From Desulfuromonadaceae bacterium (GTDB taxonomy: Bacteria; Desulfobacterota; Desulfuromonadia; Desulfuromonadales; JAHYIW01), in assembly GCA_019429445.1 (NCBI GenBank), contig JAHYIW010000016.1, positions 1-64,000 on the forward strand: a stretch of 64,000 nucleotides of DNA. Reading direction: 5' to 3'. This document shows, piece after piece, positions 28,830-54,494 of the stretch. Position numbers and translations under genes: made by a program. The notes beneath the pieces were generated by a model that was given only the letters and a program-made list of their open reading frames with translations, ran no database searches and had not been told where the DNA came from. Position 1 is the stretch's first letter; each line of letters begins with the position of its first letter.

Positions 28830-29181
28830 TGGTGGAGGTGGCGGGAATCGAACCCGCGTCCGAAAATTTTTCACATCAAGCTTCTACATGCGTAGTCCGT
28901 GTTTTAAATTTAACCCTGAGAACTCCCACGAACAGGATTCCCTTCGGGCGATTTCGCTAAGGTTTCGCCTCGCCACCGCGAACAGATATCGAGACTAGCT
29001 CACTAAATTAACGTTTCAAGCTCCACATGAGCGATGGAACAAAAAACGTGACAGCAATTAAGCTGCCAGTGCGTATTGAACGTCAGTATCGGCGTTTATA
29101 CATGATGGGCTTAGTTACGGAGCCAGCCCACTCCGGCATGCCACTTGCGCTTCCAATCCCCGTCGAAACCAGGTCACCCCC
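28830..29181 (-). ncRNA. ssrA: Transfer-messenger RNA (tmRNA)
   Basis: 352 nt. The 5' end GGGGGTG pairs with CACCTCC before the encoded 3' ACCA. The T arm is GCGGGTTCGATTCCCGC. The tag frame (stop TAA at 29058-29060) reads NADTDVQYALAA after an ATA codon that is probably the resume codon. With SmpB, encoded 118 nt upstream, it rescues stalled ribosomes and tags the product for degradation. The 3' end of ssrA is a frequent target of integrases; the defence island begins right beyond it. Confidence 0.95.
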
Positions 29182-42855: not shown

Positions 42856-44001
42856 TTATTGTTTGTTTCCGGCGAGAGACTTTATCGCCTCGATCAGAAT
42901 ATCGATCTCGTTTCGGGTCGTGAAATAACCTGGGCTGACGCGCACCGTACCCTGGGGGAAGGTGCCTAGCGAACGATGCGCTTCAGGGGCGCAGTGCAAC
43001 CCGACCCGGACACAAATTTCATGGTCTTTCTCAAGTAAAAACCCGACTTCCGCCGGATCGAGACCGTCGATATTGAAAGACAATGGTCCGACGTGCCGGG
43101 CAGATAACGGTGCATAAAGGGAGACTCGGTCAATGGCTGACAGCGTGCCCCGCAGTGATGTCATCAATGCATGCTCATGCGCAAAGATTTTTTGCAGCGT
43201 TTCCTGCTGCAGAAATTCAATCGCTGCACCCAGTCCGGCAATCCCCGCAACGTTCATCGTTCCAACTTCAAACCGTTCCGGCAACGTGTCCGCGGGGAAT
43301 CTGCTTGTCGAGTTGCTGCCGGTACCACCAAACAACAGCGGTTGAAGTTGCAGATCGGGGTGAATATAGAGAAAACCGGTTCCTGGTGGTCCCAGCAAAG
43401 ATTTATGTCCAGGAACCGCCAACAAGTCAATCGCCATCTGCTCGACATCAATCGCGATCAAACCCGCACTTTGCGCTGCATCGACCAGAAAAGTCACCCC
43501 GTTTTCCCGGCACCAGGGACCAATCTTTTCGATCGACTGAACGGTGCCACTGACGTTGGAGCAGTGACTGAGCGCTACCAACCGGGTCGGCTTTGCACAG
43601 GCGGCAAAGATGGCGTCTGGTTCGACATACCCCTGCTGATCGGCCTGCACCTTGACGACTTCAATACCCCGCATCTCCAGTTGCGCCAGCGGACGCACCA
43701 TGGCGTTGTGTTCCATAGTGGTCGTAACCACCCGATCACCGGGCACGAGCAAACCAAAGAGCGCGAGATTGATCGCCTCGGTCGCATTCGCAGTAAAGAT
43801 GATCCGTGAAGGGTCGGCAACGGCAAAAAAATTCGCGACAGATTCACGAACATTATAAACAAGTCGCGCCGCGTCAAGGGCGAGACGATGCCCACCTCGA
43901 CCGGGGTTGGCTCCGATTTCTCTCAGAGCATGATCCGCAGCCCTGTAAACAGTCTCAGGTTTTGGGTGCGAAGTCGCTGAATTGTCAAGATAAATTGGCA
44001 T
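42856..44001 (-). CDS. Cysteine desulfurase/class V aminotransferase
   Basis: 381 residues, PLP-dependent, NifS/SufS-like. IYLDNSATSHPKPETVYRA at the start, TANATEAINLALFG (cofactor phosphate), TTTMEHNAMVRP, DAAQSAG, the lysine loop AVPGHKSLLGPPGTGF, and the C-terminal active cysteine region VRVGLHCAPEAHRSLG. It supplies sulfur (or selenium) from cysteine or selenocysteine. It lies 16 nt after the SPASM protein and may serve the radical SAM cassette, for example for iron-sulfur assembly, or the YedE selenium uptake route (inference). Confidence 0.9.
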   Translation of the reverse strand: MPIYLDNSATSHPKPETVYRAADHALREIGANPGRGGHRLALDAARLVYNVRESVANFFAVADPSRIIFTANATEAINLALFGLLVPGDRVVTTTMEHNAMVRPLAQLEMRGIEVVKVQADQQGYVEPDAIFAACAKPTRLVALSHCSNVSGTVQSIEKIGPWCRENGVTFLVDAAQSAGLIAIDVEQMAIDLLAVPGHKSLLGPPGTGFLYIHPDLQLQPLLFGGTGSNSTSRFPADTLPERFEVGTMNVAGIAGLGAAIEFLQQETLQKIFAHEHALMTSLRGTLSAIDRVSLYAPLSARHVGPLSFNIDGLDPAEVGFLLEKDHEICVRVGLHCAPEAHRSLGTFPQGTVRVSPGYFTTRNEIDILIEAIKSLAGNKQ

Positions 44002-44017
44002 AATCTATGTATTTAAA

Positions 44018-44959
44018 TCAACGTTTCCCGGAACAGAGTAAATCACGCTGTCCCAGTTCTTTAGTGAATATTCCCGACAGACCACGGCAGCCACCATGGC
44101 AGTCATTGACAATCAAACAACCATTACACCCTGACGGAACATGCGCGATTTCTCTGCGGATACGTAATCTTTGTTCCGACTCCCAAATATTGCCAAGATC
44201 TGTAGTCAACAAGGAGCCGAGCTTTTCCGGCCAGGAGATACAGGGGTAGACATCGCCTTGCGAGGTGATGTGGACCAGACTGTTCGCTGCCTGGCAGCCA
44301 CCGTACTCCTCGCGTCCCTGAGCAGCGTCAGGAACCAGCAACTCCCAGAGAAACAGATCATGTACTTCCAGCCGCAGTTGAGGAGGAGCCTGCCAACTAT
44401 TTTTGAGCATTTTTTTTAGCGCGGCGAGGTCTTCGGAACGTGGCAGCTGAACGCAATCTGAGCTTTGATAAGTAACATCGATACCTATATTTGGCAACTT
44501 AAATCGCTCTATTTCAAGTATCTCGCAAAGATTGATAAGTTGCGGGATTTTCAGCAGATGTTGACGAACCGGAGGACATAATAACCCCGGGTTTAATCCC
44601 GATTGTCGCAAGCGTTGCACAACATATTTCAGTTGGTCAAAGTCAATTTCATCGGCAAGAAATCGGGTGACATCAAGCCACAGTCCAACATGTTGCAATG
44701 GGCGCTCTTCAAGAACCCGCAATTCATCTTCGTCCCCACGGCAGATAATTTCCGTCTGGCACCCGCCAGCGGCCAGGTCATGCAAAACCGCTCGACAGGC
44801 AGGATGTTTGAGCGCGGGGGGCTGAAGCAGTAAATAAAAGACACCGGCGGCGATCAGTTGCTGTGTGATGGTAGATACAACTTCGCCGGCGGGGGTGCTG
44901 GCGTCTGAACTCAGTGTCCAGGTAGCGCGGATCGGGGTGTCAAGAAGATCGAGAGGCAT
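44018..44959 (-). CDS. GeoRSP-type SPASM domain protein
   Basis: 313 residues. The C-terminus has a SPASM-type cysteine set (GGCQAANSLVHITSQGDVYPCISWPE, then GCNGCLIVNDCHGGCRGLSG). The N-terminal part folds like a radical SAM barrel but has no CxxxCxxC, so it cannot bind the SAM cluster; it is probably a partner or peptide-binding subunit of the real radical SAM enzyme at 45100-46104. I use ATG 44959 because the upstream reading begins inside the peptide gene. It lies just after a terminator-like hairpin, so its expression should be lower than that of the peptide. Family name recalled from NCBIfam GeoRSP models, not checkable here. Confidence 0.78.
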   Translation of the reverse strand: MPLDLLDTPIRATWTLSSDASTPAGEVVSTITQQLIAAGVFYLLLQPPALKHPACRAVLHDLAAGGCQTEIICRGDEDELRVLEERPLQHVGLWLDVTRFLADEIDFDQLKYVVQRLRQSGLNPGLLCPPVRQHLLKIPQLINLCEILEIERFKLPNIGIDVTYQSSDCVQLPRSEDLAALKKMLKNSWQAPPQLRLEVHDLFLWELLVPDAAQGREEYGGCQAANSLVHITSQGDVYPCISWPEKLGSLLTTDLGNIWESEQRLRIRREIAHVPSGCNGCLIVNDCHGGCRGLSGIFTKELGQRDLLCSGKR

Positions 44960-44970
44960 GGAGTGTCTAA

Positions 44971-44997
44971 AGAAAAAGGGGGCAGAAGACTGCCCCC
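44971..44997 (-). terminator. Hairpin terminator/attenuator between peptide and SPASM gene
   Basis: Minus strand GGGGGCAG, loop TCTT, CTGCCCCC (8-bp stem, 44978-44997), then TTTTTCTTT. It lies 8 nt after the peptide stop and 11 nt before the SPASM gene ATG. Classic intrinsic terminator form; partial read-through would keep the downstream enzyme low and the peptide high. Confidence 0.85.
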
Positions 44998-45005
44998 TGA
45001 TCGGT

Positions 45006-45062
45006 TCAGCAGGGATGAACGTTCGAGGAACCGACAATACGGGGTTTCAGATACTTTTTCAT
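45006..45062 (-). CDS. GeoRSP-type precursor peptide, 18 residues
   Basis: Encodes MKKYLKPRIVGSSNVHPC, too short for most gene callers. AAGGAGGT, a perfect Shine-Dalgarno, lies 7 nt before the ATG. A basic leader-like half (MKKYLKPRIVG) is followed by SSNVHPC, with a C-terminal Cys next to His and Pro, good candidates for modification by the adjacent radical SAM/SPASM enzyme (45100, 37 nt upstream). A terminator follows. The SSNVHPC ending matches my memory of GeoRSP targets in Geobacter relatives. The final codon TGC is followed by TGA; selenocysteine was considered and not supported. Confidence 0.8.
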   Translation of the reverse strand: MKKYLKPRIVGSSNVHPC

Positions 45063-45099
45063 GTTTTAACCTCCTTGGTTGTTGATTGACAGGACTGTA

Positions 45100-46104
45100 T
45101 TACTTCCAGCAATGGGGATCGGGTTGATTGAAATCCCCGGTTATTGCATAAGATCGCGCCGTACACCCCCCCTGACAGGCTTCATAGGAGCCACAATCCA
45201 GACATTTGCCTCCGGCGCGCTTATTTCTCATCTGATTAAGAACAGGAGAATTGTACCATATTTCATCAAAATCATCGTGCAAAATATTGCCGACAGTGAG
45301 CGGAATAAATCCGCAGGGGGTCAAGTCGCCATTCGGTCGTAAATTCAATGAGAGTTTTCCGCAGCTGCTTCCTTTAACCAATGGATCGGTGTCATAACCC
45401 GGCAGGGAAGAGATGACCGGATCGTCGAAAGAAATCGCCAGATCATGCGTTTGTTGCTTGACACGCAACGCCTCAACATAGAATGCTTTCCACTCAGCGG
45501 GGGTCAGATCAAGGTCCTCCCGATTTTTAAAGCCACGACCGCTGCACTTGAAATTATGCAGGTAAACCTGCGCCACCTCGTAGCGACGTGCCAGATCAAG
45601 CAGTTCGTGGAAGTGTTGATAATTGATTTGTGAGATAACAGAACTCATGGTCCGTTTCAACCCGACGTTCTGCAGTACCCTCAAGGCAGCAACTGCTTTT
45701 TCGAATGAGCCGGGCATATTCCTGAAATCATCATGCAAGGCGGGATCAGCACTGTCGATACTGATCCCCACACTTTTGAATCCGCTCTTGTGCAGTCGTG
45801 TCGCGGCTGGTTCGTCGAGCAAAGATCCGTTTGAATTCATCGCAACATTGAGCCCTTTGGATGTCGCATACGCAGCAATCTCAAACAGATCCTCGCGAAT
45901 CAGCGGTTCGCCGCCGCCAAAGTTGATAAATGGAATCTTTTTAGCCACGAGAATATCAATGATCTTTTTAATATCAGCGGTTTCCAGTTCTGCAACCTGT
46001 TCATCACGGCTATAGCAATGGCTGCAACTGAAATTACAGCGAAACGATAACGTCCAGTTGATTGTCAGTGGCGCAGAAAACAGATCGATAAAGTTGTCAG
46101 GCAT
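45100..46104 (-). CDS. GeoRSP-type radical SAM/SPASM enzyme
   Basis: 334 residues. Radical SAM cluster motif CNFSCSHC (CxxxCxxC) near 23-30, GGGEP SAM-binding near 63, and a C-terminal SPASM region (CGKLSLNLRPNGDLTPCGFIPLTVGN, then KCLDCGSYEACQGGCTARSYA) that binds extra 4Fe-4S clusters. It is expected to modify the 18-residue peptide encoded just downstream, with PqqD-like protein upstream as recognition chaperone (overlap 8 nt) and the SPASM-only protein as partner. The chemistry (thioether, epimerisation or other) cannot be read from sequence. Confidence 0.9.
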   Translation of the reverse strand: MPDNFIDLFSAPLTINWTLSFRCNFSCSHCYSRDEQVAELETADIKKIIDILVAKKIPFINFGGGEPLIREDLFEIAAYATSKGLNVAMNSNGSLLDEPAATRLHKSGFKSVGISIDSADPALHDDFRNMPGSFEKAVAALRVLQNVGLKRTMSSVISQINYQHFHELLDLARRYEVAQVYLHNFKCSGRGFKNREDLDLTPAEWKAFYVEALRVKQQTHDLAISFDDPVISSLPGYDTDPLVKGSSCGKLSLNLRPNGDLTPCGFIPLTVGNILHDDFDEIWYNSPVLNQMRNKRAGGKCLDCGSYEACQGGCTARSYAITGDFNQPDPHCWK

Positions 46105-46423
46105 AACTCAGCCATCCTCGTTGCTGTAATTCATCAAGAAATTCATTGACATCACTCTCCAGTTCGTCACGGGAAACGGAAAATTCGTCGGCAAGTTGTG
46201 CGGTGATCTCGTCAACCGTGCGGGTCCCGTCACATAAACACCAGATCATCCCGCCGACAAGATTCAACTGATGCATGGTCCCGGACACCACGAGCAGAAC
46301 GGTGCCTTGCTCATCCACCACTTCACCTTCCTCCAGTGCCCGCAACACCCGTTCCTCCTTGCGTTGTTCCCGGCGCCAGACGATATCGCTGTTTCTCAGT
46401 GGTCGTTGCGTAAAATAATCCAT
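46097..46423 (-). CDS. PqqD-family peptide-binding protein
   Basis: 108 residues from ATG 46423 (AGGAACGTC upstream). C-terminal PqqD fold: TVLLVVSGTMHQLNLVGGMIWCLCDGTRTVDEITAQLADEF. PqqD proteins bind the leader of a ribosomal peptide and deliver it to a radical SAM enzyme, here the overlapping gene. The first 30 residues are charged (WRREQRKEERVLRALEEGE). 7 nt separate it from the YedE gene. Confidence 0.88.
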   Translation of the reverse strand: MDYFTQRPLRNSDIVWRREQRKEERVLRALEEGEVVDEQGTVLLVVSGTMHQLNLVGGMIWCLCDGTRTVDEITAQLADEFSVSRDELESDVNEFLDELQQRGWLSYA

Positions 46424-46430
46424 GACGTTC

Positions 46431-47495
46431 CTATTCTGTCTCACGTTCACGAAACAGCAGCATCGATAAAACCGTCAGCGCCAGACCGGTAAGTACTGCA
46501 ATTTTTCCGCCGCTCGGAACCCCAGCTGTTGTTGCTGTAATCCCCCAGGCTTGCACCAATGCCGCACCAATCAGCATACCAATAACCACCAGCCCGGCAT
46601 CAGTGTCCCCTTCCCCTGATTTGATCAGCTGACGCAGCGGGCAACCACCGATCAGCGCCGAGACAATTCCCACCAGCAGCATCCCGGTAAAATTCCAGAC
46701 CGCTTCGAGGTGCGCGCCCGGTTGACCGAGCCAGCCAACGTTGAAACGACCAACAAGGACACTGAACAAAAATGCGCTGACAATAAAGGCTATTCCGCCC
46801 CACAACAACGGTGCCCGCCGCCCCAAAATCAGCCCGTCCCGAATCCCCCCGGTAATACAGAAGCGGGTTCGTTGGGCAAGCCCGCCGAGAACCAGACCCG
46901 CCCCAAGGGAAAAAAACCAGGGAGCATGTAATGACGCACTGCCGCGCTCGGAAAAGAGCAAAAATCCGGGACGCACAAAAAATGCGGCCAAAAGTGCCAA
47001 AAAAAACAGTGGTGTGATCCAACCGGTTCCCCGCTCTTTCAGTGGCTGACCGAAAGAAACGCCATGACCAAGCCCCTGCAAACCGATCCAGACACCGCAG
47101 AACAGACCGGCAACCCCGGCCAGCGCAGTTAAATCACCGGCGGAGAGTCGCAAAAAAAGTTTTATCGGACAACCGATAAATATCGCGCAGCCAATCATCA
47201 GCAGAATTCCGGCTACGATGCGTGGTAACGGTGCCCCACCGCCACGCGAGACGAACTCCCGACCGATTAACGCACTCACTGTTGCACCGAGCACAAATCC
47301 CGGCAGCTCCGGCCGCAGATACTGCATCCGGTCATTATCATGAAAACCGAGCGCACCGACGCTGTTTTCAAGAAAACAGGAAACACAGATTCCGGAATTA
47401 GCCGGGTTGCCCCATACGGACAGCATGACGCCGAGCGCACCGAAAACACCTCCGGCCAGAATGACCAGCCATAAATGTCGATCGCGCCAGTTCAT
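46431..47495 (-). CDS. yedE: YedE/YeeE-type putative selenium (or sulfur) transporter
   Basis: 354 residues, about nine membrane helices. Cysteine motifs SGICVSCFLE, IGCPIKLFLR, RFCITGG and IGGCPLRQLIKSGEG are those of the YeeE/YedE family, whose thiosulfate-type members pass sulfur through the membrane by conserved cysteines; the YedE branch is linked with selenium metabolism by gene context. Between the periplasmic gene train and the PqqD/radical SAM cassette, with gaps of 3 and 7 nt, so probably co-transcribed with both. Confidence 0.88.
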   Translation of the reverse strand: MNWRDRHLWLVILAGGVFGALGVMLSVWGNPANSGICVSCFLENSVGALGFHDNDRMQYLRPELPGFVLGATVSALIGREFVSRGGGAPLPRIVAGILLMIGCAIFIGCPIKLFLRLSAGDLTALAGVAGLFCGVWIGLQGLGHGVSFGQPLKERGTGWITPLFFLALLAAFFVRPGFLLFSERGSASLHAPWFFSLGAGLVLGGLAQRTRFCITGGIRDGLILGRRAPLLWGGIAFIVSAFLFSVLVGRFNVGWLGQPGAHLEAVWNFTGMLLVGIVSALIGGCPLRQLIKSGEGDTDAGLVVIGMLIGAALVQAWGITATTAGVPSGGKIAVLTGLALTVLSMLLFRERETE

Positions 47496-47498
47496 CGG

Positions 47499-48038
47499 TT
47501 ATTCACATCCGCCCGCCAAACGACTTTGCAGATAATGCAGATGACGTTTGGTCGTTAAAGCGACCGTATCCTCAGCATCGTTCGCCACACGCGCAGCGTA
47601 GAGGGGTAATTGATTTGCGACCAGCGCTATTACCGTTTTGCGATAAGAAAGCGAACCGTTGCGATCAATATAATTGCCATTCTGCTTTATCCCGGCGGCC
47701 AAACTTTCCAGCGCGGCATCGATGGCTCCCATCTTGCTGAGTATCACCCCCTTAAGCACCTGACCATACGCTTCGTCCGGGGAAGAGCGTTGAACCTCCT
47801 CCAACGCCAACAGGGCATGCGAAAAATCACCAGCTTCCAGTGCTGCGGTCACCGGCGCGTAAAGGTCTGCAAGATAGTCAAAGCGTGCCCGCTCGGTAAT
47901 TTTACGTTCGAGATTGCGATCATTATGCTGCGTCACATAAGCGCTACCTTGCAGGGAATATGCAGTCGTTGTCGCGATGGCGATCAAGAGCAAAATAAAC
48001 GCGCCCCATAAGAGACGATCATAACGATCAACAAGCAC
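47499..48038 (-). CDS. Membrane-anchored hypothetical protein with TPR-like part (179 aa)
   Basis: An N-terminal membrane helix (LLWGAFILLLIAIATTTAYSL) and a soluble, probably periplasmic domain with alternating helices (FDYLADLYAPVTAALEAGDFSHALLALEEVQRSSPDEAYGQVLKGVILSKMGAIDAALESLAAGIKQN) that look like two to three TPR units. No catalytic motif. Within the gene train, 3 nt from each neighbour. Probably an assembly scaffold for the periplasmic partners (inference). Confidence 0.7.
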   Translation of the reverse strand: MLVDRYDRLLWGAFILLLIAIATTTAYSLQGSAYVTQHNDRNLERKITERARFDYLADLYAPVTAALEAGDFSHALLALEEVQRSSPDEAYGQVLKGVILSKMGAIDAALESLAAGIKQNGNYIDRNGSLSYRKTVIALVANQLPLYAARVANDAEDTVALTTKRHLHYLQSRLAGGCE

Positions 48039-48041
48039 TGC

Positions 48042-48950
48042 TTAATACTCCTGATAAGGGGGCATGTTAACCAGCCTGGCCATGTCACGGACGACATCGT
48101 ATTCAGCGTCGCGCAGAGCTTCAAAACCATCGATCCAGGCGGATTTCAAAACTTTGATGCGCTCCCCGGCAATGTCAACGGTTGTCTCCGGGGTCAGTTC
48201 GAGTAAGGCCCGGCGCACTTTTTCAACCACTGCGGGGTCAAGTTTGGCCGCTGCGCCGAAGGTGCAATACGGTACCAGTGGACTTTGCCCCAAAATCACA
48301 AAATCATCGGCGGTAATTTTGCCTTCACGGGTCATCACTTCCAGGTCGAGCAAAGGCGCGGCGGCAACATCAAACGCACCAAAATAGAGACCATAAACCA
48401 GTTTTTCGTGTTTAAACGACCCGGAAGGGATTGCGTAATAGGCCAGGTCACGCTCCGGATCGATCCCGTTGCGCAACATCAGGTCGTATTGAGCCAGATA
48501 TCCGGTCGGTGCCATCATCGGACCGAAGACCATTCGCTTGTCTTTAAGGTCAGTCAGTTTTTCAATACCACTCCCTTTGCGGGCAATAATTGTTCCGGCA
48601 CTGCGCGAACCGAAGTTCCCACGTTTTTCAGCCGCCAGAAGTTGCAAATCATGATCGAATTTAAGTTGAACGTAAAGGAGTGAATTCGAATGGGTTAAGG
48701 CAAACTCACCTTGCGCATAACGTTCTGCAAATTCGTGGGTATCAACCGGTACCGCCTCAAAATCGATTCCGGTGTAATGACTCAAGTAAGCTGTCAGCGG
48801 GAGAAAGCGCGTAAGGGTCTCTGCCTCGCTGTTGCAGTTCATGTAACCGATCTTCATTTTTTGACGTTCACCCGCCTGCTCGCAGCCTGACAAAAGCAAA
48901 GAGGTGACAACCAGTAATCCGGCGATCAATAGATAGCGCAGCAATGACAC
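48042..48950 (-). CDS. PhnD-like periplasmic binding lipoprotein
   Basis: 302 residues. Signal peptide with lipobox LLSGCEQ (Cys 23), then the PhnD fold: KIGYMNCNSEAETLTRFLPLTAYLSHYTGIDFEAVPVDTHEFAERYAQGEFALTHSNSLLY, DLKDKRMVFGPMMAPTGYLAQYDLMLRNG, SFKHEKLVYGLYFGAFDVAA. Relatives bind phosphonate, phosphite or other oxyanions for ABC transporters; no permease or ATPase genes are here, so it may be a sensor or chaperone-like lipoprotein of this gene cluster. Confidence 0.87.
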   Translation of the reverse strand: MSLLRYLLIAGLLVVTSLLLSGCEQAGERQKMKIGYMNCNSEAETLTRFLPLTAYLSHYTGIDFEAVPVDTHEFAERYAQGEFALTHSNSLLYVQLKFDHDLQLLAAEKRGNFGSRSAGTIIARKGSGIEKLTDLKDKRMVFGPMMAPTGYLAQYDLMLRNGIDPERDLAYYAIPSGSFKHEKLVYGLYFGAFDVAAAPLLDLEVMTREGKITADDFVILGQSPLVPYCTFGAAAKLDPAVVEKVRRALLELTPETTVDIAGERIKVLKSAWIDGFEALRDAEYDVVRDMARLVNMPPYQEY

Positions 48951-48953
48951 AAT

Positions 48954-50048
48954 TTACCTTTCAAAAGTGATTTCAGGACGAATCTTTAATGGCAGTGAAG
49001 CATCCACGATACCAGCCGCCGGACGATCATTACGGTCCCGAATCAGCAATTCAATGGAGGCTGGTTCAACGTTACCCCACCAGTTGTGTTGAGCACTGAA
49101 ACTGTCGGAGCCTTCATTCACCAGCGCATATTCGCCGTTGGAGATAATTGCATTTTCGGACAGTAGCGCTGTGGAATTGACCACCTTGACCCCCGCTCGA
49201 CCCTGACCGGTGATGAGATTGGCGTTGACCACTCCGCTTGTTTTTTCAAGAAGAATGCCATGTTCACTGTTTCCCTCAATCCGGTTGTGCACCACAACGG
49301 CCCGGGATTCCTGAAGATAAATCCCCTTGCGGTTATTGCGAACCAGATTGCGGCGCAACGACACCTCAGACCCGCGAAAGTTCAAGCCATTGATCCGGTT
49401 GTTTTCAATCAGGCAATCTTCCATTGTTACCGTGCTGTAGACGCAACGGGCCCCCCAGAGATTGCCATCAATAACGCTGTCAGCAATACTTACCGTCGAG
49501 TCACGAAACTGAATTCCGTTAAAGTTATCAAGGATTTTACAGCGTTCAATCGCCACCGTTGATTCCTGGAATTGTCCGGCGCGAAGATTGTTGCTCAATT
49601 CAGTCTCACGTAATCGTGCCCGTGAAAAATGGGCATGAAAACCACGGTAGGCATATTCGATCTTGCAATGTTCGAACAGGCTTTCTGTTTCGGTCGCCAT
49701 CATGTTGATCGCCCCCCAAGCACCGGGATGAGGTTGTGCCTGGGCCGAAGTAAACACAACAGGCGCGGCGGCGGTCCCCATTGCCCGCAACGTTCCCTGA
49801 ATAAACAGTTCATGTTCGCCGATACGATCATGGTTACTGTCAGCAAAAGTGAAAGAAATGATCGTTCCAGGGCGAATTTCCAGCGTGATGCCAGGTGCAA
49901 CCGTCAGGATTCCGTCAATCGTGACCTCTCCCTGCCAGACTGTGTCACGGTAGAGGGTATTCTCACCCCGATAGGACAACGAACCATCCTGCGCCAGAAT
50001 CGGCAGAGGGATCAAACACAGATAAACGACACAGATCAAAATTTTCAT
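48954..50048 (-). CDS. NosD-like right-handed beta-helix protein (secreted)
   Basis: 364 residues. Cleavable signal MKILICVVYLCLIPLPILAQ, then repeated short strands with regular polar turns (VTMEDCLIENNRINGLNFRGSEVSLRRNLVRNNRKGIYLQES), the pattern of a parallel beta-helix of the NosD/CASH type, ending with QHNWWGNVEP. Periplasmic. NosD helps maturation of N2OR, but no nosZ is here; a copper/heme assembly or carbohydrate-like binding role is open. ATG overlaps the previous stop (ATGA). Confidence 0.83.
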   Translation of the reverse strand: MKILICVVYLCLIPLPILAQDGSLSYRGENTLYRDTVWQGEVTIDGILTVAPGITLEIRPGTIISFTFADSNHDRIGEHELFIQGTLRAMGTAAAPVVFTSAQAQPHPGAWGAINMMATETESLFEHCKIEYAYRGFHAHFSRARLRETELSNNLRAGQFQESTVAIERCKILDNFNGIQFRDSTVSIADSVIDGNLWGARCVYSTVTMEDCLIENNRINGLNFRGSEVSLRRNLVRNNRKGIYLQESRAVVVHNRIEGNSEHGILLEKTSGVVNANLITGQGRAGVKVVNSTALLSENAIISNGEYALVNEGSDSFSAQHNWWGNVEPASIELLIRDRNDRPAAGIVDASLPLKIRPEITFER

Positions 50049-50863
50049 TGATCGCCCGTTACTGCATCTGTCAATGCACGCGACAGGTGGACATCGACCC
50101 GGTTGGCGTTGAACTGGATATGCGGGTACGAAACATTGCGGGAACCAAGATATATCCCGATGTCGTTATGGCTGATGGTGTTTGCATGCAAGGTTGGCAT
50201 ACTGTCGGCGTCGATATGAATACCCTCTTCCTGCTGGCCGGTGATTCGATTGCCAACCAGGACAGGGGCACTGGAACGCCAGCAAAAAATCCCCCCTTCC
50301 CCACTTTCAATAAGATTATCGCGGATCACCGGTGCGCTCCCAAGCTGAGCAATAATGCCGTAGCGACAACCACTTAGATGGTTATCCTTGATCAGCGGGG
50401 AAGAACTGACGCAGAGAATTCCGGTCTCGGCATTGCGTAGCTCGGTACCGACAATCTGCGATCGCGTCGCACCGAGCAGTTCGATCCCGGCCCAGCCGTA
50501 AGCGGTTCCATCAGGCACTTCAAGCGGAGTGAATACCACCGGCTGTGCCGTTGAACCGGATATTCTCAATTCCCCCTGGATGAGCAGCTCCGTCGCGGAA
50601 GAAAGAAACTCCGGGTCGATCTTTGTCCCCTGCGCGGCACGGATATAGATTCTGGTTCCCGGATGAATAATCAACTGGCTACCGACCGGAATGCGCACGT
50701 CGCCAGCTATCAACAGCTCATCACGCCACTCGGTTATGCCGGTCAGGGTGCCTGAATATCGCGGCAGCGTCTGCATATCCGGTGCGTCGGCAAAAGATCG
50801 CGAATGGGGAGTGCATCCCGCCAGAGAAATTATAAAAAGCAGTATGGCCAGAAGACGAAACAT
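50045..50863 (-). CDS. Right-handed beta-helix lipoprotein
   Basis: 272 residues from ATG 50863. Lipobox LAGCTPH (Cys 17), then the same kind of beta-helix repeats (ELRNAETGILCVSSSPLIKDNHLSGCRYGIIAQLGSAPVIRDNLIESGEGGIFCWRSSAPVLVGNRITG). A second, lipid-anchored relative of the next gene, which suggests duplication and that the two form a pair. GGGTGGG lies upstream of the chosen start; an extension to 50953 lacks a signal peptide. Confidence 0.82.
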   Translation of the reverse strand: MFRLLAILLFIISLAGCTPHSRSFADAPDMQTLPRYSGTLTGITEWRDELLIAGDVRIPVGSQLIIHPGTRIYIRAAQGTKIDPEFLSSATELLIQGELRISGSTAQPVVFTPLEVPDGTAYGWAGIELLGATRSQIVGTELRNAETGILCVSSSPLIKDNHLSGCRYGIIAQLGSAPVIRDNLIESGEGGIFCWRSSAPVLVGNRITGQQEEGIHIDADSMPTLHANTISHNDIGIYLGSRNVSYPHIQFNANRVDVHLSRALTDAVTGDQ

Positions 50864-50867
50864 GGGA

Positions 50868-51332
50868 TCAAACCCACCCCTGTTCGAAATAGAACTGCCG
50901 TACCAGCGCCAATGGAGCGGCCCCCTCTCTGACCTGCTTAAGGAGCTGCGCATAGTGCTGCGGTTGTAACTGTTGCCCCAGTTTAGCCAGCGCTGGAATT
51001 GTGGTGGTGAACTGAAGTGTTGCTAAGATGCGTTTGCCTGCCAGAAGAACCGCGTCGGCAGAGAGAACCAACAGCGCTGTCTCGTTTTCTCGCGGCGGGA
51101 CAAAAGCAAAATCAATCTGCTCATTGCCGATCAATAGGCGCGGATCCTGATCGATAATCACCGCGTCAACCTCCGTGCCGGTCTTTTCTTTGAGATAGAT
51201 CGAGATTAGTGCATGTTGCAGTTCTCCCGCCGGACCGGAGGGAACCCCCAGATACAGTTTGGGCCCGAAGCAGGCATCGGTCGGTGTGGTCAGAGCACAG
51301 ATGATGGTGATCAATAAAAGCAGTGTCTTCAT
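50868..51332 (-). CDS. Small periplasmic binding-protein-like protein (154 aa)
   Basis: Signal peptide MKTLLLLITIICALTTPTDA, then CFGPKLYLGVPSGPAGELQHALISIYLKEKTGTEVDAVIIDQ and NEQIDFAFVPPRENET, which resemble the first lobe of an OpuAC-type solute-binding protein, but the length is only half. Start ATG 51332 fits the signal peptide; the longer reading starts within the polyferredoxin gene. No transporter partner; role unknown. Confidence 0.68.
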   Translation of the reverse strand: MKTLLLLITIICALTTPTDACFGPKLYLGVPSGPAGELQHALISIYLKEKTGTEVDAVIIDQDPRLLIGNEQIDFAFVPPRENETALLVLSADAVLLAGKRILATLQFTTTIPALAKLGQQLQPQHYAQLLKQVREGAAPLALVRQFYFEQGWV

Positions 51333-51333
51333 A

Positions 51334-52827
51334 TCAGCGAATAAAGAGCCAGACGATAACGGTAGCAAGATAAAGCGCGGCGACCAGAGTGACCCCCGTT
51401 GCCGCACCAAAAAAATATCCCCAGCGGATTGCCCCGGTCCGGGCAAGAGCAACTCTTTGCGCAGCAATTAAAGAGACAGCATAGCCCGCGATAAGCAGGA
51501 GCAATACGACCCATTTAAGCAGATCGAGTGACACCACTACTCCGGGAGGAGTGACCGTTGTCATAATGTTGATCGCCAGATAGCTTTTGACACCGGATGG
51601 ATCACTGAGAACCAGCGGTAGATACCCCCCCTTGGCATTCAACTTAACCAAAGCCAGAATGGCGTGAGCGGCCAATAACAGCGGGATATAGGGTAATGCC
51701 AGACGGCGAAACGATTGCCACCAGCCCGCAGTGACATCACGCTGTTGCCCTGTGGGAGGGTCAGGCCGGGGAACCGCTGAAACGTTTGTCTCGGCAAGGC
51801 GCATCACCAGCCAACCGGGAACCGTTAATAACAGCGGCAAGCCGAGAGTTATCCAAAGAACCGCGAGAAGATTATACCCCCCCGCCTGCCAACCGAGCAG
51901 TTGCGCGACCTGTTCCGGCAACCAGAAAATCACCTCGCGCAGATCAACATTGACTTTGCTGAAATTGGCCGTCAACATACCGAGCAAAACCAGCAAAAAA
52001 AGTCCTTCGGTCAGGGCCAGACGGTCTGTACCGAATTCTGCCAGCCATGGCCTGAACCCCAGCCGCATATTGTCACGATCACAGTTCTGAAGACAACCCA
52101 GACACAGGGTGCAGCCGGAATCATCGTGCAACTCGGCAGGAAACAAATCGACCGGACACGCATCACGTTCGGCGTGCCAGTAACCGACTGCCCGCCCGAG
52201 GGAAATTTTTTTCCAGAAACGCCCACCAGACACGCAGGCACGTGTATCACAGCCGGCACAGGTAGATTCATCCTTGACCCGCAGGCTGAATGGTGCGATC
52301 CGCGCATAGAGTCCGAAGACCGCGCCAGCCGGGCAAAACAGCTTGCAGAACGCCCGCCCCCGAAAAAGAGCTCCGGAAAAAACGGTCAACAGCAGCATCA
52401 GACCGATCAGCCAGGCAGTAAAATCGGGGTAACGATGGATTGCGAAAAGGTAGACGATGAGCTGCAACAGCACCAGAACGATTGTCACCGACACATAATT
52501 GTTGATCCAGCGAGGCAACGTCAGCTTGAAACCAGAGCGGGCAACCAGACCGTTCAGCCAGCCAAGCGGACAGACTGAACACCAGGCACGCCCGAAAAAA
52601 AGAGCAATAAAAACAACGCCCATCATCCATACGACCCAAAAACCGTAAGTCGACAGATTGGTATACATCAACGGGTCTTTGACGTCCAGACCGGGGATCG
52701 TATGATGATGCCACCCGGCGGCGGCAATCACCAGCAACAGCAACAACAGCGACAGCCGCAGCAGCCGCCAGCTCCAGCGCGAGCGCAGGATCTGGCCGAC
52801 AAATTTCACATCCAGAAGATTGTTCAT
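51334..52827 (-). CDS. NapH/NosR-like membrane polyferredoxin
   Basis: 497 residues, about ten membrane helices. Cysteine sets GRAWCSVCPLGWLNGLV, GRAFCKLFCPAGAVFG, STCAGCDTRACV and SGCTLCLGCLQNCDRDN indicate several 4Fe-4S or CX3CP-type sites, as in NapH, NosR and CcoG. It probably moves electrons from the quinone pool across or along the inner membrane to the periplasmic components of this cluster. Start after the HEAT gene by 15 nt. C-terminal three helices (GYAVSLIAAQRVAL...) are extra relative to NapH. Confidence 0.88.
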   Translation of the reverse strand: MNNLLDVKFVGQILRSRWSWRLLRLSLLLLLLVIAAAGWHHHTIPGLDVKDPLMYTNLSTYGFWVVWMMGVVFIALFFGRAWCSVCPLGWLNGLVARSGFKLTLPRWINNYVSVTIVLVLLQLIVYLFAIHRYPDFTAWLIGLMLLLTVFSGALFRGRAFCKLFCPAGAVFGLYARIAPFSLRVKDESTCAGCDTRACVSGGRFWKKISLGRAVGYWHAERDACPVDLFPAELHDDSGCTLCLGCLQNCDRDNMRLGFRPWLAEFGTDRLALTEGLFLLVLLGMLTANFSKVNVDLREVIFWLPEQVAQLLGWQAGGYNLLAVLWITLGLPLLLTVPGWLVMRLAETNVSAVPRPDPPTGQQRDVTAGWWQSFRRLALPYIPLLLAAHAILALVKLNAKGGYLPLVLSDPSGVKSYLAINIMTTVTPPGVVVSLDLLKWVVLLLLIAGYAVSLIAAQRVALARTGAIRWGYFFGAATGVTLVAALYLATVIVWLFIR

Positions 52828-52842
52828 CGAACATCACCCATG

Positions 52843-53742
52843 TCAGTGATAGATATTGTAAGGGGGGACATAGTCACCAGCATTGTTGCGATAAAGGATA
52901 TGTTCTCCGGTAATCATTTCGAGTGAACGTGCGGACCATTCGCGCACGACACGGACCTCATCCTCCAGGGTTTTACGCAACGATTCAACTGCCGCTGGTC
53001 CGCCAAGCGGTCCCAGAGCCATGGCCGCATTCATGCGAATACGCCAGTCGGGATCGTCCAGCGCCGAGGTCATTGCCGCTGCGGCACGCCGATCCTTCAA
53101 TTTTCCCAAAGCCAGTATCGCTTCGATGCGATGCTCTCCGGAAAGCTGCAGCAACAACGCATCGAGTGCGCGTTGATCGCTGATATCCCCCAATGCGCGA
53201 ATGGCACCGGCCGCGGCACGCACCGACCCGGCAGACAATACGTCGAGCAGAGGGGGCACAGCCGCGCGATTCAACTTGATCAACGAACGCGTTGCGTAGC
53301 GCCGCACTTGGTGATCAGGGTCATCGAGCGCGGCAATCAACGCCGGAATCCCGGCAGGATCGGCAATTTCACCGAGTGCCCAGGCGGCAATGTAACGGCG
53401 ACCTAATTTTGTGTTCGCCAACACAGCGCCGATTTCCGGAACAGCGGCACGCACCTGGAGTGTGCCGAGAGCGGCAATGACGTGTTCGCGACGCTCACTG
53501 CTGTCGGAGTCAATCTCTTTGATCAACGCAGGCGCAGCCTTTTCCCCCAGATCGAGGAGTATTTTGTAAGCCTGCATGTTCAGGTTGTTCTCTGTATGTC
53601 CCAAGAGAGCAACCAGCTGTTCAGCCGCTGGCTGGTCGCCACTGCGCGCCCGTCCTTCGAGGGCGGCAAGGTCAAGCGGCCCCTGTTGTTCACAAGCATT
53701 TAACATGAACATGATGACGAATAACAACGTATACCGTGTCAT
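52843..53742 (-). CDS. HEAT-repeat lipoprotein
   Basis: 299 residues. Lipobox MLNACEQQ (Cys 17), then about six HEAT/PBS-lyase-type repeats (AWALGEIADPAGIPALIAALDDPDHQVRRYATRSLIKL; AIRALGDISDQRALDALLLQL). No bilin-lyase residues can be claimed. A scaffold for protein contacts in the periplasm is the usual reading. Overlaps the previous gene by one base. Confidence 0.85.
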   Translation of the reverse strand: MTRYTLLFVIMFMLNACEQQGPLDLAALEGRARSGDQPAAEQLVALLGHTENNLNMQAYKILLDLGEKAAPALIKEIDSDSSERREHVIAALGTLQVRAAVPEIGAVLANTKLGRRYIAAWALGEIADPAGIPALIAALDDPDHQVRRYATRSLIKLNRAAVPPLLDVLSAGSVRAAAGAIRALGDISDQRALDALLLQLSGEHRIEAILALGKLKDRRAAAAMTSALDDPDWRIRMNAAMALGPLGGPAAVESLRKTLEDEVRVVREWSARSLEMITGEHILYRNNAGDYVPPYNIYH

Positions 53743-54494
53743 TACCAGACCTTATGAACAGTAATATCGACGTTTTTCAATAACTCTTCATCCTTGACAA
53801 TGACTGCCGAAGGCTCAATCGTTCCCTGATCGTAACGGCCATAAAGATCACCAAGTTTTGGCGGGCCACCAAACTTGTCGCGCGCCGCCAGATAATAGGT
53901 GCCCCCTTCCGGAAGATAGATCAGATAACGCCCGTCCGGCCCGGTCTTTTCAGAAACGAATTTAGGGCGTTCCGACATCTGGACGTGGTCATAAACATGG
54001 ACCCGGGCCGCCTCCACTGACAACCCGTCGCTATTAAAGATTGTTCCGGAAATGCCGGTCTTGGTTACCAGAGCATCCTCGGTCAGGCGACGGGTATCAC
54101 CAACCTTGAGGGGCGCAAGGATGGACAATCGGGTCACATCTTTGGAAACCGACAAATTAATAAATTCACTCTTGTTGTCCCCCGCCAGAACCGGCCCCGT
54201 AGCATCCCCCGTCTGACGTTTTCGAGCCACCAGGATGTAATCACCAACGGGAAGGTTAAGGTCAAAACTACCATCTGCCCCGGTTGCTTCTGAAAGAGTA
54301 AACGCCGGGCCATAAAGATCCATCCCTTTTTTGTAAACGTAAATGGTCGTGCCTTCCACCGGGGCAACAACTGTTCCGCTCACCGAACGAAGTGCGGACG
54401 TCGTCGCGGGGGATGGTTGAGAACCTCCTTCATTCTGACATCCAGAAAGCAGCAGGAGACTGACCAGCAGCAGGACAAACAGGTAGCGAATCAT
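53742..54494 (-). CDS. Carboxypeptidase-regulatory-like lipoprotein
   Basis: 250 residues. Lipobox LLSGCQNE (Cys 19), then two beta-sandwich repeats of the CarboxypepD_reg type (SVSGTVVAPVEGTTIYVYKKG..GSFDLNLPVGDYILVARKR, and GISGTIFNSDGLSVEAARVHVYD..GRYLIYLPEGGTYYLAARDKFGG). Probably a binding or structural lipoprotein in the periplasm. 15 nt after the heme-domain lipoprotein gene. Confidence 0.83.
   Translation of the reverse strand: MIRYLFVLLLVSLLLLSGCQNEGGSQPSPATTSALRSVSGTVVAPVEGTTIYVYKKGMDLYGPAFTLSEATGADGSFDLNLPVGDYILVARKRQTGDATGPVLAGDNKSEFINLSVSKDVTRLSILAPLKVGDTRRLTEDALVTKTGISGTIFNSDGLSVEAARVHVYDHVQMSERPKFVSEKTGPDGRYLIYLPEGGTYYLAARDKFGGPPKLGDLYGRYDQGTIEPSAVIVKDEELLKNVDITVHKVW

Follow-up and report, generated by a model that had tools for sequence, protein, structure and literature searches.

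What an open reading frame of only 18 codons and a TGA stop is doing beside the genes of a radical SAM/SPASM cassette, whether it encodes the substrate of the neighboring enzyme, and what its product could be for, are the questions raised by the 64,000-nucleotide stretch of Desulfuromonadaceae DNA analyzed here (hereafter, the window). The frame (MKKYLKPRIVGSSNVHPC) begins 37 nt behind the stop codon of the radical SAM gene. The minus-strand letters up to its start read CCAAGGAGGTTAAAAC-ATG, with the ribosome-binding site AAGGAGGT (45076–45069) placed 6 nt ahead of the ATG, and it is followed by a G+C-rich stem of 9 pairs (44998–44977) and a T run (TTTTTCTTT). A sequence-only reading of this DNA had placed a ribosome site, an ATG, a stop, and a terminator around an 18-residue peptide, and all of them are present on the minus strand. 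It had also described the flanks as a radical SAM enzyme with a PqqD-like protein on one side, which holds, and as a SPASM-only protein on the other, which does not, since that protein has a radical-SAM-like barrel too.

Table 1. Features of the peptide gene and the surrounding locus (window coordinates)
Feature	Position	Strand	Basis
GeoRSP precursor peptide CDS, MKKYLKPRIVGSSNVHPC	45062–45006 (stop included)	minus	sequence, relatives, coding selection
Ribosome-binding site of the peptide gene, AAGGAGGT	45069–45076	minus	sequence
Intrinsic-terminator-like stem-loop directly after the peptide	44977–44998	minus	sequence
GeoRSP radical SAM/SPASM maturase	45100–46104	minus	TIGR04303, 434.9 bits (cut-off 400); alignment A1
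PqqD-like RiPP recognition element protein	46097–46423	minus	Pfam PqqD, 1.8e-19; TIGR04302
GeoRSP SPASM protein (degenerate radical SAM barrel plus SPASM)	44018–44959	minus	TIGR04304; alignment A2
Cysteine desulfurase family protein	42856–44001	minus	TIGR01977, 434.5 bits (cut-off 377)
YedE-type sulfur/selenium membrane transporter, kept in locus	46431–47495	minus	TIGR04112, 380.7 bits (cut-off 200); synteny
TPR-like protein, kept in locus	47499–48038	minus	synteny
PhnD-like periplasmic substrate-binding lipoprotein, kept in locus	48042–48950	minus	PF12974, 3.8e-46; synteny
NosD-like right-handed beta-helix exported protein	48954–50048	minus	PF13229/PF05048; synteny
Second NosD-like beta-helix protein	50045–50953	minus	PF05048, 1.1e-16; synteny

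Judged by its profile scores, the cassette belongs to the known GeoRSP system as a divergent form, because the radical SAM/SPASM enzyme lies above the TIGR04303 cut-off, while the other two proteins find their best families in TIGR04302 (PqqD-like protein, 94.7 bits, just below the cut-off of 100) and TIGR04304 (SPASM protein, 110 bits against 300) without reaching the cut-offs. The position of the SPASM protein gene is as in Geobacteraceae loci. This protein keeps seven conserved SPASM-type Cys residues, lacks CxxxCxxC (alignment A2), and shows a profile match to PqqE (6c8v) across most of its length. Its predicted structure (mean pLDDT, 82), with SuiB (5v1s) and PqqE as the best fold matches, resembles whole radical SAM enzymes, with a (β/α) barrel plus SPASM. 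In the absence of CxxxCxxC, the SPASM protein is probably a catalytically dead radical SAM paralogue.

The gene run NosD–PhnD–TPR–YedE–PqqD–radical SAM is kept together in distant families; ResB- and NicO-like genes are present in addition in Geobacter loci and an ArsP-type permease in a Nitrospiraceae locus, and the cysteine desulfurase family gene is a conserved neighbor only within the order. We infer that the roles of these genes at or across the inner membrane would fit export of the product or of its targets; neither a protease nor a dedicated exporter for the peptide was recognized. The same neighbors can be read in another way, with the mature peptide as a secreted metal- or sulfur-binding ligand that loads a periplasmic metallocofactor through its terminal His and Cys, and with NosD, PhnD, YedE, and the desulfurase as suppliers of the metal or sulfur. 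Such a ligand would account for the conservation of NosD-like, YedE, and substrate-binding proteins in the locus, for the NicO, ResB, or Cu/Zn-efflux-like genes at some loci, and for the His-Pro-Cys tail, but no metalloenzyme target is found in the locus and the roles of the NosD-like, YedE, and PhnD-like proteins here are untested, and we regard it as unlikely. The gene run itself extends upstream (window 51334–54494) into genes for a NapH-like 4Fe-4S membrane protein and lipoproteins, one of which appears carboxypeptidase-regulatory-like by eye. Elsewhere in the window, a tmRNA gene lies on the minus strand at 28830–29181 (Rfam, 210 bits).

In relatives, the same 18-residue peptide was visible already in a pattern-free listing of small ORFs behind the enzyme, and other loci, once turned round, showed further copies behind the enzyme. 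The family follows the pattern [YF]xxPx[VI]xGxxx[VI]HPC-stop, and the consensus of 137 gene copies with 86 distinct 15-residue tails is Y-x-K-P-[RK]-[VI]-V-G-[ST]-[SAG]-[NS]-V-H-P-C-stop, in which the DNA search pattern (Yxx P x7 VHPC-stop) prescribed Y, P, and VHPC and left the other positions free. Every member found carries [YF]xxP, whose Y and P, though pattern-fixed, were first seen pattern-free, and the C-terminal Cys is invariant and always the last residue; peptides from distant genomes read MKTRYVKPRVTGQSSVHPC, MKKIPYVKPRIAGTSSVHPC, and MKKYMKPKVVGSSSVHPC. With a pN/pS of 0.21 across 15 codons and of 0.37 across the 9 codons not fixed by the search pattern, the family evolves as coding sequence with mostly synonymous changes. 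A ribosome-site-like sequence precedes 130 of the 137 peptide genes, and a terminator-like hairpin follows 69 of 135, as against 18 of 685 control stretches (2–4% of controls). Because about half of the peptide genes, whether beside the enzyme gene or away from it, have the hairpin behind them, the peptide gene usually comes last in its unit. No model in NCBIfam or Pfam matches the 20-residue paralogues of the peptide. Selenocysteine at the tail was rejected, the last codon being TGC or TGT in every exact-pattern member (TGA variants were not systematically covered). In one lineage without an obvious peptide, a conserved MKVSLSNTKILLFRGKK ORF was likewise discarded, since reading its frame upstream revealed a longer ORF that ends in it; the peptide of this lineage, with Phe for Tyr, was located elsewhere in the genome by the one-mismatch search.

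The peptide and the enzyme occur together genome by genome. Among 38 relatives in the order, a GeoRSP radical SAM orthologue of at least 500 bits is present in 18 (other matches, below 155 bits), and the peptide was found in 18 of these 18 genomes versus 0 of the 20 without the enzyme (Fisher p = 3e-11). In the phylum (297 genomes; enzyme in 21, all scoring above 379 bits and well separated from the next score, 193), the exact pattern is present in 18 of 21 genomes with the enzyme versus 2 of 276 without (p = 8e-24), and in 20 of 21 with the enzyme when one mismatch is allowed; in Nitrospirota (148 genomes), the corresponding counts are 10 of 10 versus 3 of 138 (p = 3e-13). These p-values overstate the significance, because related genomes are not independent. 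Among named records, the enzyme is carried by Geothermobacter hydrogeniphilus, Malonomonas rubra, Geomobilimonas luticola, many Nitrospirae, and a Candidatus Rokuibacteriota bin, among others. All three species and the Rokuibacteriota bin also have the peptide, as do, with a single exception, the Nitrospirae genomes searched (one mismatch allowed). A supposed absence of the peptide from Geobacteraceae and Nitrospirota proved wrong, as it sits elsewhere in their genomes. Exceptions run in both directions: in the drafts G212 and G352, the enzyme is present and no peptide was found with one mismatch allowed, and five assemblies (G235, G281, G378, G418, and G439) contain the peptide without a full GeoRSP enzyme orthologue, possibly through assembly gaps or loss. 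At the G418 locus (C13:14489–15959), the only trace of a radical SAM gene near the peptide gene is a short piece of the C-terminal part, at a distance of about 1 kb, and it is possible that the system is decaying there. On the genomes available, the peptide family nearly always accompanies the GeoRSP enzyme in at least three bacterial phyla.

The pattern read backwards gave no match in any genome searched with it, indicating that chance matches are rare; one match of the forward pattern, in G285, was set aside as chance because of an in-frame stop. With its recurrence at the same place in most relatives, its coding-type evolution, and the absence of reversed-pattern matches, the 18-residue peptide is, at the level of sequence, beyond chance and a genuine gene. 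Its very short length and the terminator immediately behind it might be taken to mean a regulatory leader or a chance ORF that is no substrate at all. A chance ORF is excluded by the conservation and the controls, and protein-level conservation across phyla with predominantly synonymous change, the genome-wide association with a single enzyme family, and a location last, not first, in transcription units leave either form of this explanation highly improbable. The sequence-only reading had proposed that the peptide is the substrate of the enzyme and would have been refuted by a lack of conservation beside homologous radical SAM/SPASM enzymes; the peptide is conserved there, and the genome-wide co-occurrence, which persists even when the two genes are distant, supports it further. 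What that reading said of the peptide and the substrate was right and understated, as the named system, the multi-copy dispersal, and the link to cytochromes add to both.

The assignment of MKKYLKPRIVGSSNVHPC as substrate is thus strong, whereas how it is modified and what it does are matters of inference. W/Y/LxxP motifs are the reported targets of PqqD-type recognition elements (PMC12710340), lasso peptides use a YxxP recognition motif (PMC6784204), and PqqE requires PqqD as a separate recognition protein (PMC8326336). A precursor motif of this type is present here as [YF]xxP, and the VHPC tail with the upstream YxxP would fit a leader plus a modified tail, the modification being inferred and not shown. 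The PqqD-like protein may bind the N-terminal half through [Y/F]xxPx[V/I], for which there are no binding data, and offer the remaining, C-terminal half (xxxVHPC) to the radical SAM/SPASM enzyme. Assisted by its probably catalytically dead paralogue, this enzyme would then modify the C-terminal end (SSNVHPC in the window), most likely at the C-terminal Cys, by a thioether, a C–C cross-link, or an oxidative decarboxylation. After GeoRSP itself, the best-scoring named relatives of the enzyme are the heme b synthase AhbD and the mycofactocin enzyme MftC. Both catalyze oxidative decarboxylations, MftC at a C-terminal residue, and given this kinship, a thioether and a C-terminal change at Cys18 are equally plausible. 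We hold it quite probable that this reading, with the peptide as a GeoRSP precursor that is bound by the PqqD-like protein and modified at its C terminus, is correct.

As for the function, the number and the placement of the peptide genes are informative. Each genome has one enzyme and one to six, often 2–6, scattered peptide genes. The window's genome has one GeoRSP enzyme and three peptide genes; the copy in the window is not itself behind a multiheme gene, and the two further copies, both on another contig, lie 37–40 nt behind giant cytochrome ORFs with 38 and 34 CxxCH motifs. Across genomes, 90 distinct copies are not beside the enzyme. A multiheme cytochrome gene, with up to 52 CxxCH motifs, is directly upstream of 36 of the 86 for which the upstream ORF was readable, versus 14 of 1107 ORFs in control stretches (Fisher p = 1e-33), although the enrichment ratio is approximate because the background ORFs were called mechanically and some are spurious. 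The link to cytochromes is not universal, since more than half of the dispersed peptides are not directly behind a cytochrome gene and some stand alone; other upstream partners are FG-GAP/ASPIC proteins, carboxypeptidase-regulatory-like proteins, and Ig-like exported proteins with a terminal biotinyl/lipoyl domain. The last of these, large and exported-looking, precede peptides in several genomes (L151:8949–12140, L152:5624–8410, L287, L301, L302, and L303), a lipoyl-type domain being odd at the end of an exported protein. Separately, the giant cytochromes before peptides frequently share a conserved end, W-N-x-x-[TS]-P-W-stop (L135:8931, L136:8008, L138, L148, L149, L276, and others). Counted by pattern, with hits having TGG in place of the stop discarded, this end occurs in 11 of 18 genomes of the order with GeoRSP versus 1 of 20 without, and is possibly a surface-sorting or partner-binding tail.

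The copies behind genes for giant exported heme proteins suggest a role in building or running the outward electron wiring of the cell. The product may be exported and act as a modified small subunit, as a cofactor, or as a maturation factor, its partners being giant multiheme cytochromes and other exported proteins of the surface, a proposal that rests, for the multiheme proteins, on gene position only and on which we are evenly divided. More tentatively still, one maturase may turn out modified 18–20-residue peptides that are built, as structural or redox subunits, into surface proteins, giant extracellular multiheme cytochromes among them; if so, every such surface protein would have its own peptide gene behind it, and extracellular electron wiring would be partly peptide-modified. 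It is also conceivable, if doubtful, that the peptide is the GeoRSP substrate and the product is a single diffusible redox cofactor or carrier, in the manner of PQQ and mycofactocin, the copies merely raising the dose of precursor and the cytochrome genes carrying one because they need the cofactor expressed alongside. The tiny precursor of about the size of PqqA, the aromatic-x-x-P motif, the discrete PqqD, and the PqqE-like enzyme agree with such a cofactor, as does the small variation in the last seven residues among the copies within one genome. No finishing enzymes like PqqB/C/F or MftD/E/F were seen in the locus, however, and copies behind several unrelated kinds of exported protein are less easily explained by one shared cofactor.

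No mention of GeoRSP as a system, of its TIGR numbers, or of SNVHPC was found in the open-access literature, and no open-access paper was found that brings a multiheme cytochrome, a radical SAM enzyme, and a RiPP together (subscription papers were not covered in either case). As far as this literature shows, the maturation system has a name, and no description exists of the peptide family, of how it is dispersed, or of its link to giant cytochromes. With the present assignment, a radical SAM system that had a name but for which no described target was found gains a substrate, with the reservation that free-text notes of the NCBIfam curators may mention one. It also connects GeoRSP, in Desulfuromonadales, Geobacteraceae, and Nitrospirota, with giant multiheme cytochromes; these groups are intensely studied for extracellular electron transfer. 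The assignment predicts that a modified peptide, not seen so far, is present in cells and structures of kinds that are already being purified, so that the prediction is directly testable.

Compared with GeoRSP as defined by TIGR04302, TIGR04303, and TIGR04304, the window agrees in the radical SAM/SPASM enzyme above the cut-off, the gene order, and the best-matching models, and differs in PqqD and SPASM proteins below the curated cut-offs and in a peptide without an NCBIfam or Pfam model. One maturase for many scattered peptide genes behind different exported proteins is unlike the usual compact RiPP cluster. Sactipeptides and ranthipeptides share the radical SAM/SPASM enzyme and a tail Cys, whereas the GeoRSP peptide has a single Cys at the very end and no thioether has been shown. 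PQQ biosynthesis is similar in its very short precursor (PqqA has about 22–24 residues), aromatic-x-x-P motif, discrete PqqD, and radical SAM/SPASM enzyme, with PqqE (6c8v) among the best solved relatives. In contrast to PQQ, there is no Glu/Tyr cross-link pair, the window peptide having no Glu and its Tyr lying in the recognition motif, and the GeoRSP peptide has an invariant C-terminal Cys and dispersed copies, with no PqqB/C/F seen. In quinohemoprotein amine dehydrogenase, QhpC, modified by the radical SAM enzyme QhpD, is a small chain that works as a subunit together with a c-type heme protein encoded beside it (PMC7876137), and many dispersed GeoRSP peptide genes likewise stand next to genes for heme proteins of the c type. 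QhpC, at about 15 kDa as produced with its tag and leader, far exceeds the GeoRSP peptide in length, and it shares an operon with the enzymes that modify it, whereas a single GeoRSP maturase, encoded at a separate place in the genome, acts for many loci. By analogy, quinohemoprotein amine dehydrogenase is the closest precedent for a multiheme role, and a subunit role of the GeoRSP peptide is put forward here as a hypothesis.
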